DNA from: Natrinema sp. DC36
GTDB taxonomy: Archaea > Halobacteriota > Halobacteria > Halobacteriales > Natrialbaceae
DNA length: 64,000 nt
Direction of reading: 5' to 3'
NCBI RefSeq assembly: GCF_020405225.1
Contig: NZ_CP084472.1
Location: 1,364,001 to 1,428,000 of the forward strand
The notes below the pieces were generated by a model. The model was not told the origin of the DNA. It did no database searches and saw nothing but the letters and a program-made list of their open reading frames with translations. A program made the position numbers and the translations under genes. This document shows, in pieces, positions 43,075-44,139 of this stretch (within the stretch, counting starts at the first letter, position 1; every line of letters starts with the position of its first letter).

Positions 43075-43249
43075 GGGGTCGTGGCCAAGCCAGGCATGGC
43101 GGCTGACTCCAGAGGCAACGCGCCCGGGACGACACTCCAGACTGATATACTGATCGGACACCTGATCAGTGTCCGTGTGATGACCCTCTGGAGTTCCGAG
43201 GCGCACCGGAGATATCAGTAGATCGGGGGTTCAAATCCCTCCGACCCCA
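43075..43249 (+). tRNA. tRNA-Trp (CCA anticodon) with intron
   Basis: Acceptor arm GGGGTCG (43075-43081) pairs with CGACCCC (43242-43248), and A43249 is the discriminator; CCA is not encoded. D arm GCCA/TGGC, anticodon stem GCTGA with the 3' partner TCAGT after the intron, anticodon CCA at 43109-43111, T arm GGGGG-TTCAAAT-CCCTC. A roughly 101-base intron interrupts the anticodon loop after position 37, the canonical site in haloarchaeal tRNA-Trp. Exact splice points need the bulge-helix-bulge check. Confidence 0.95.
43113..43213 (+). ncRNA. tRNA-Trp intron carrying box C/D guide elements
   Basis: The intron contains box C GTGATGA (43177-43183), several CTGA boxes (43142, 43150, 43162), and a 7-bp hairpin CGGACAC/GTGTCCG. 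After box C lies CTCTGGAG, complementary to the anticodon loop CTCCAGAG. ACTGATAT (43141-43148) is complementary to the 3' exon ATATCAGT. In Haloferax this intron is known to guide 2'-O-methylation of C34 and U39; the same logic is visible here. Confidence 0.85.
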
Positions 43250-43291
43250 TCCTCGCCGCTCGCAAACTCGCGAGCGGCAGGTATGCAAGAG

Positions 43292-43343
43292 GAGGGATTT
43301 GAATCAGGGAGCAACTTCGCTGCGACCGTGGTTCAAATCCCTC
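43292..43343. repeat. T-arm-like inverted and direct repeats next to tRNA-Trp
   Basis: GAGGGATTTGAA (43292-43303) and TTCAAATCCCTC (43332-43343) form perfect 12-base inverted arms. The right arm also repeats the tRNA T-arm GTTCAAATCCCTC (43229-43241) 102 bases downstream. Another hairpin, GCCGCTCGC/GCGAGCGGC, lies at about 43255-43278. The pattern suggests remnants of integration events at the tRNA 3' end. Confidence 0.6.
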
Positions 43344-43416
43344 TCTGATTCGATTGTGCGTTCTTCTGGCACCGAACTCGTGTGCAGTCTCTCGGTAGTC
43401 GGAGATCCGAGTTCGG

Positions 43417-43500
43417 TATAGTAGCCACTGAAAGTCACTGCACACTCGATCGCACGACGGCTGCGCGATCGATGTGTGAACCGTTTCAGTTGGAACTATA
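43417..43500. repeat. 84-bp imperfect palindrome ending TATAGT/ACTATA
   Basis: Left and right halves match in blocks: TATAGT with ACTATA, ACTGAAA with TTTCAGT, CACAC with GTGTG, CGATCGC with GCGATCG, around an 11-base centre. It codes for nothing I can see. A T-run (TCTTTTTTC, near 43565) 65 bases downstream could end a transcript. It is either a MITE-like repeat or a structured small RNA; only one copy is in this window. Confidence 0.6.
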
Positions 43501-43584
43501 TTCCGACCGGCGTGGGAAACTGAAACACCCGCTTCGGCCGGTACACGGGCGTATTGATCAGATGTCTTTTTTCTAAGAATCCAC

Positions 43585-43662: not shown

Positions 43663-43899
43663 ATGAGGTGTTATTGGCCCGAGCCGAACCCGCCTTGCAA
43701 GCCGAAGGCATGCCTCGAGTGTGAGACGCGTATCGATGGCGATGAAACTGAGGGATACTGGTTGGAGCGCGAAAACTGGCAAAACCCGAATTCGTATCAT
43801 CTGTTTTGTCTAGATTGTTGTGCCGAAAAGATGACCGAGTGGCCAAACCACCCCGATGTAGATGGTGCAGACGCTGCGAAAGCGGTTCTGTACGAGTGA
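43663..43899 (+). CDS. Small Cys-rich protein, 78 aa, probable zinc binder
   Basis: It starts MRCYWPEPNPPCKPKACLEC and has CLEC (17-20) and CLDCC (49-53) pairs with nearby His, a treble-clef-like zinc site. Composition is less acidic and lower in GC than neighbours, with more Lys and Asn, suggesting acquired DNA. No family recognised. Confidence 0.6.
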   Translation: MRCYWPEPNPPCKPKACLECETRIDGDETEGYWLERENWQNPNSYHLFCLDCCAEKMTEWPNHPDVDGADAAKAVLYE

Positions 43900-44139
43900 C
43901 TTCCCGTCGGAGCCGGCAGCGTGATACCGACGCTGCCTGTACTCGTCTCGAGTTTTGCGAGTGCTCCGACTACCGAACCCACGGTACTATCGGCTGCTAT
44001 TCTCGAGGCCGACGGCCAGAGCGAACCCCGAGGAACGCGGATCGATTCTCTCCCGGCTGAAGCCGGACCAGTTCGAGACAAGCCGGACGCTCGCGAGGGA
44101 GGCCCTCGAGAAGCGGTCACGACGTAATTCGTGTTTCAG

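Follow-up and report, generated by a model that had tools for sequence, protein, structure and literature searches.

An 84-bp palindromic repeat dispersed among haloarchaeal genomes is a probable IS630-type MITE

The 84-base imperfect palindrome at positions 43417-43500 of the window, the whole stretch of 64,000 nucleotides from Natrinema sp. DC36 analyzed here, is very probably a non-coding copy of a MITE of the IS630/Tc1-mariner type, presumably moved in trans. That the element is a mobile repeat is close to certain, that its movement is of the IS630 type is likely, and that it functions as an RNA is unlikely. The family is dispersed and its ends are fixed, recent copies lie at unrelated sites, and occupied and empty alleles differ by the element plus 2 bp. 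Additionally, the ends resemble those found in a clade of haloarchaeal IS630 elements and the C/G context is shared with that clade, which supports an assignment to the IS630-type MITEs. In the proposed mechanism, an IS630-family transposase encoded elsewhere would bind the ends (~17-24 bp) and cut out the 80-bp element, which would insert at TA, preferably within CTAG, and duplicate the TA; the cut-and-paste chemistry and the mobilization in trans are both modeled on the known behavior of IS630 and ISY100. A literature search turned up no description of the repeat, and to the extent of the searches made, this IS630-type MITE is new as a family. A repeat that is absent from Rfam and that many haloarchaeal genomes carry dozens of times can now be accounted for and tied to an IS630 clade through its target context and its ends.

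The palindrome, with its TATAGT and ACTATA ends, spans exactly 43417-43500. It is real, and the boundaries given for it in a first-pass annotation made from sequence are those of the true repeat unit, as 173 of 185 distinct full copies of the family are exactly 84 bp long with the same ends. No long open reading frame in the ORF list runs over it, in agreement with the earlier view that it has no coding role, and it carries no transposase. Its strand is defined by the asymmetric internal loop (GTCACTG in the left arm), and its parts are as follows.

43417..43500, + strand: whole repeat unit, an 80-bp MITE with a TA on each side (100% self match)
43417..43418, no strand: left TA, presumed target-site duplication (the relative's empty sites hold 2 bp)
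43499..43500, no strand: right TA, presumed target-site duplication (the relative's empty sites hold 2 bp)
43417..43433, + strand: left terminal inverted repeat TATAGTAGCCACTGAAA, TA included (perfect consensus, 173 copies)
43484..43500, - strand: right terminal inverted repeat, TA included (consensus of 173 copies)
43434..43440, + strand: left side of the internal loop, GTCACTG (conserved column-wise; non-complementary to the other arm)
43479..43483, + strand: right side of the internal loop, AACCG (consensus AATCG; column conservation)
43441..43455, + strand: left arm of the inner stem (fold; co-variation with 43463-43478)
43463..43478, + strand: right arm of the inner stem (fold; co-variation with 43441-43455)

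The family, whose consensus is TATAGTAGCCACTGAAAGTCAATGCACACCTGATCGCACGACGGCTGTGCGATCAGTGTGTAAATCGTTTCAGTTGTTACTATA, is built of 17-bp terminal repeats, an internal loop and an inner stem. The terminal repeats are conserved in the 173 copies, and the internal loop, which differs between the arms (GTCANTG versus AATCG), is conserved on each. Compared directly with the best-preserved subfamily sequence, the window copy has 8 changes over its 84 positions, among them the compensating pair C30T/G56A; its right terminal repeat, TTTCAGTTGGAACTATA on the + strand, has two changes relative to the subfamily form TTTCAGTTGTTACTATA. Variants with a different or longer center are also present. In the DC36 genome, longer members of ~198-214 bp (L029 1501-1697, L054 1501-1710 and L055 1304-1517) have in common an inserted center of GAGCGAAC-type repeats. 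L299 (2348-2459) combines a different center with ends, TATAGTAGTCGTTGAAA, that are nearer to those of IS630. Draft contigs of N. thermotolerans (L195, L199 and L221) contain head-to-tail copies 85-89 bp apart; since these are separated by N in the draft, such tandem arrays may be assembly artefacts. Closely spaced copies of the palindrome occur in other genomes too.

In the genome of origin (5.1 Mb), BLAST matches fall at 54 places, about 40 of them distinct. In a class-wide sample of 391 genomes from 86 genera, 128 genomes and 34 genera had matches, the strongest of them in the family of the host. Named records with matches (Natrinema, Natronorubrum, Natrialba, Haloterrigena, Natronococcus, Haloarcula, Halomicrobium and Halostella, among others) all belong to Halobacteria, and none of the phage records matched. 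A pattern scan of viral contigs gave 67 matches, which are taken as chance because none of them scored with the family profile. The element is thus neither single-copy nor unconserved, and the spread over 34 genera bears out the mention, in the first-pass annotation, of similar intergenic elements in haloarchaea. It might be supposed that a functional DNA site, such as a protein-binding palindrome or a replication or segregation site, has been spread by selection and not as a transposon, and the element is indeed palindromic, intergenic and kept in many genera. However, copy number is highly variable between genomes in the class-wide sample, with many genomes lacking the element altogether, and the precise occupied and empty alleles with their 2-bp differences, together with transposon-like ends, leave this explanation barely credible.

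One identical 84-mer is found at seven unrelated places in N. mahii. The joined flanks of copies in a close relative (G395) were searched in the Natrinema sp. DC36 genome, and eight sites occupied in the relative but empty in DC36 were aligned. In seven of the eight, as read from the aligned flanks, the empty allele consists of the two flanks plus exactly 2 bp, so the mobile unit is an 80-bp sequence between two TA dinucleotides; the eighth (L166) is not clean. The 2-bp residue reads TA, TA, TG, TG, CA, TC and AA at the seven clean sites, with exact TA in two and a sequence one base off TA in five, which fits duplication of a TA target. The simplest reading is that TA was duplicated and later underwent point changes, or that target choice is slightly relaxed; in vitro, ISY100 sometimes duplicates AA/TT (PMC2170065). 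Duplication of TATA was rejected, as the empty sites hold 2 bp and not 4, and target duplications outside the TATA were tested for and are absent. For sites occupied in DC36, the relatives' empty alleles are less clear. The alignment of the closest relative stops ~33 bp before the window copy.

The flanks of the copies are near random, except that position -1 is C in 72% and position +1 is G in 76%. Around the TA, these bases make CTAG, matching the known target preference of IS630: members of the family insert at TA and duplicate it (PMC2170065), and IS630 itself prefers CTAG according to Tenzen and Ohtsubo (1991), as cited in PMC2170065. In loci L181-L260, CTAG occurs 243 times versus 2140 expected from base composition, and is the inferred insertion target of the element despite this roughly nine-fold depletion.

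Elements with comparable ends are present in the same class of hosts. Among the DDE_3 (IS630-type) loci of Natrinema are elements 1055-1059 bp long that carry two overlapping ORFs, and the transposase of the ~1059-bp haloarchaeal elements matches NF033545. Their ends, each preceded by an outer C, read TATAGTAACCGTTAGAACTTTCTA (5') and TATAGTAGACGTTAGAAATAATTG (3'), and like the small element they have a TATAGTA start, terminal TA and an outer C..G, the last in 17 of 23 IS copies. The left terminal repeat (43417..43433) resembles the 3' end of these elements and the right one (43484..43500) the 5' end. Over 24 positions, the left end agrees at 16 with the IS 3' end (14 with the other) and the right end at 16 with the IS 5' end (13 with the other), with a shuffle p of about 1e-4 for each 16/24 match. 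Much of this signal is the common TATAGTA, as positions 8-24 alone give p about 0.02 for each end. Read directly against the small element, L307, the closest IS copy, is identical to it at 20 of 26 positions. The IS elements differ in encoding a transposase in their two overlapping ORFs, in being 12 times longer, in reading CRTTAGAA where the small element has CACTGAAA, and in their unrelated interior.

Among the IS ends read, no autonomous element has the exact end TATAGTAGYCACTGAAA. In a class-wide pattern search for an IS with this exact end, and in a search for one with a hybrid end, every match listed was a copy of the small element. DDE_3 matches are missing, at the threshold used, from 11 of the 29 Natrinema genomes. 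The sole DDE_3/IS630 copy in the DC36 genome (L285, G000:C4:120950-121366) keeps both ends, and its first ORF is broken by a frame change. In Haloquadratum, too, MITEs lacking a functional helper are on record (PMC3119063). The lack of an exact-end IS, the five of seven empty sites that depart from TA, the DDE_3-free Natrinema genomes, the broken ORF in the genome of origin and the preserved inner stem all weigh against the IS630-type MITE assignment.

Some of the same points would suit a mobile repeat moved by another or unknown system, for instance as a Haloquadratum-type SMR or through single-strand machinery of the IS200/IS605/RAYT type that works on hairpins. The MITEs, PATEs and SMRs of Haloquadratum are, like the element, haloarchaeal, transposase-free and present in tens of copies (PMC3119063), and SMRs are similar to it in size and number (about 80-110 bp, with terminal inverted repeats and an unknown helper; PMC3119063). 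The absence of an exact match to the full terminal repeat among the IS ends read and the five empty sites that are not exactly TA also favor such a system. However, SMRs, compared here by description, reportedly lack a target duplication and prefer other mobile elements as targets (PMC3119063), whereas the empty sites of the element are flanks plus 2 bp; its ends also set it apart from SMRs, which are defined by ends unrelated to any transposon. IS200/IS605-derived PATEs, again compared by description, have near-terminal palindromes and no terminal inverted repeats (PMC3119063), whereas the terminal repeats of the element extend to its very ends. The common TATAGTA start, the C..G context and the end-specific matches indicate IS630, and movement by another system is improbable. 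The general features of MITEs are all found, the element being short and non-coding with terminal inverted repeats and many dispersed, polymorphic copies with unrelated flanks. Of those of an IS630-type MITE, a duplicated TA target (with five of seven sites one base off TA) and a CTAG preference are found as well, and the terminal repeats are partly similar to those of an autonomous element, at 16 of 24 positions for each end.

The first-pass annotation had left the choice between a MITE-like repeat and a conserved structured small RNA. For the latter, it may be that a small RNA, attenuator or terminator-like hairpin was kept for its function as RNA and dispersed by duplication. The 84-base element folds strongly as RNA, at -33.9 kcal/mol versus a shuffle mean of -20.2 (z -4.3; 1 of 200 shuffles equally good), its asymmetric loop is conserved, and both stems co-vary through compensatory changes above shuffles and slid controls, in counts that relatedness inflates. 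Yet Rfam contains no matching family, and half-changed pairs on the element + strand are equally often G-U (192) and A-C (203), so neither strand is preferred. The copies avoid genes, with 130 of 135 classifiable copies intergenic (genes being called by a simple codon score). Their shares of tandem, divergent and convergent gaps follow the background, and their orientation relative to genes is unbiased (39 versus 33). The lack of strand preference and the background gene context argue against a strand-specific RNA, an attenuator or a terminator, and the unrelated flanks and empty alleles are marks of a mobile unit. A terminator role was rejected on the gap proportions, the lack of orientation bias and a scan that found no terminator-like site at the element. 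The T-run noted earlier as lying about 65 bases downstream does exist (43567-43572, six T, 67 bp beyond the element), and is too distant to form a hairpin terminator. A structured RNA is thus very unlikely, and it is the MITE half of the earlier interpretation that stands, on about 40 places in the genome of origin, 34 of 86 genera and insertion-site polymorphism. Annotators should not read the hairpins of this element as small RNAs or terminators.

Under the IS630-type MITE assignment, the preservation of the inner stem is not accounted for by transposase binding at the ends. The inner stem may be kept by correction of one arm of the palindrome by the other, or by a role for a DNA hairpin. 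The active subfamilies keep their stems paired by compensatory changes and retain the asymmetric loop, so the full-length hairpin could be under constraint; that folded DNA (single-strand or cruciform) aids movement, in-place inversion or arm-to-arm correction is conceivable, if doubtful. An orthologous copy lies in opposite orientation in two close species (L003 1501-1584 versus L138, G395:C1, about 1332397-1332464). This arrangement, which would fit the folded-DNA reading, may have come about through inversion in place or through two independent insertion events at a single site. Both the maintenance of the palindrome over its full length and the use of a site as rare as CTAG for insertion raise testable questions on MITE biology in archaea.

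Comparable repeats are known outside the archaea. The RUP elements of Streptococcus pneumoniae are non-coding MITEs of about 107 bp derived from IS630-Spn1, are present in many copies, and are presumably moved in trans by an IS630 transposase with TA duplication. They differ from the element in host domain and sequence, and their helper has near-identical ends, whereas only partial similarity is seen here. Correia elements of Neisseria and ERIC elements of enterobacteria are short palindromic repeats that lie between genes and duplicate a TA target, and Correia ends begin with TATAG, as do those of the element; hosts and lengths differ, and the likeness is one of general description. The Stowaway MITEs of plants, cited in PMC2170065, are similarly hairpin-like, duplicate TA and are moved by mariner-type transposases, and differ in being eukaryotic and in their ends.

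A tRNA with an intron (43075-43249) lies 167 bp upstream of the window copy, which also adjoins a small Cys-pair-rich ORF of ~78 aa on the + strand (43663-43900), shorter than the cut-off of the ORF list. The tRNA, which has a long insertion, was detected by Rfam and missed by ARAGORN; it is probably a tRNA-Trp with an intron, as its anticodon is read as CCA. Downstream of it, at about 43290-43352, two sequences resembling tRNA T-arms form an inverted pair, and similarity to most relatives stops at this region. A diverged copy of the tRNA-downstream stretch is present at G000:C1:2293787-2293912. The end of similarity and this second copy suggest that the region downstream of the tRNA is an integration site. 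Elsewhere, the right flank of L007 (about 1700-1750) contains a second, unrelated dispersed high-copy repeat of the CCCTCCCCAACCGATTCGC type, which has dozens of matches in every Natrinema genome searched.
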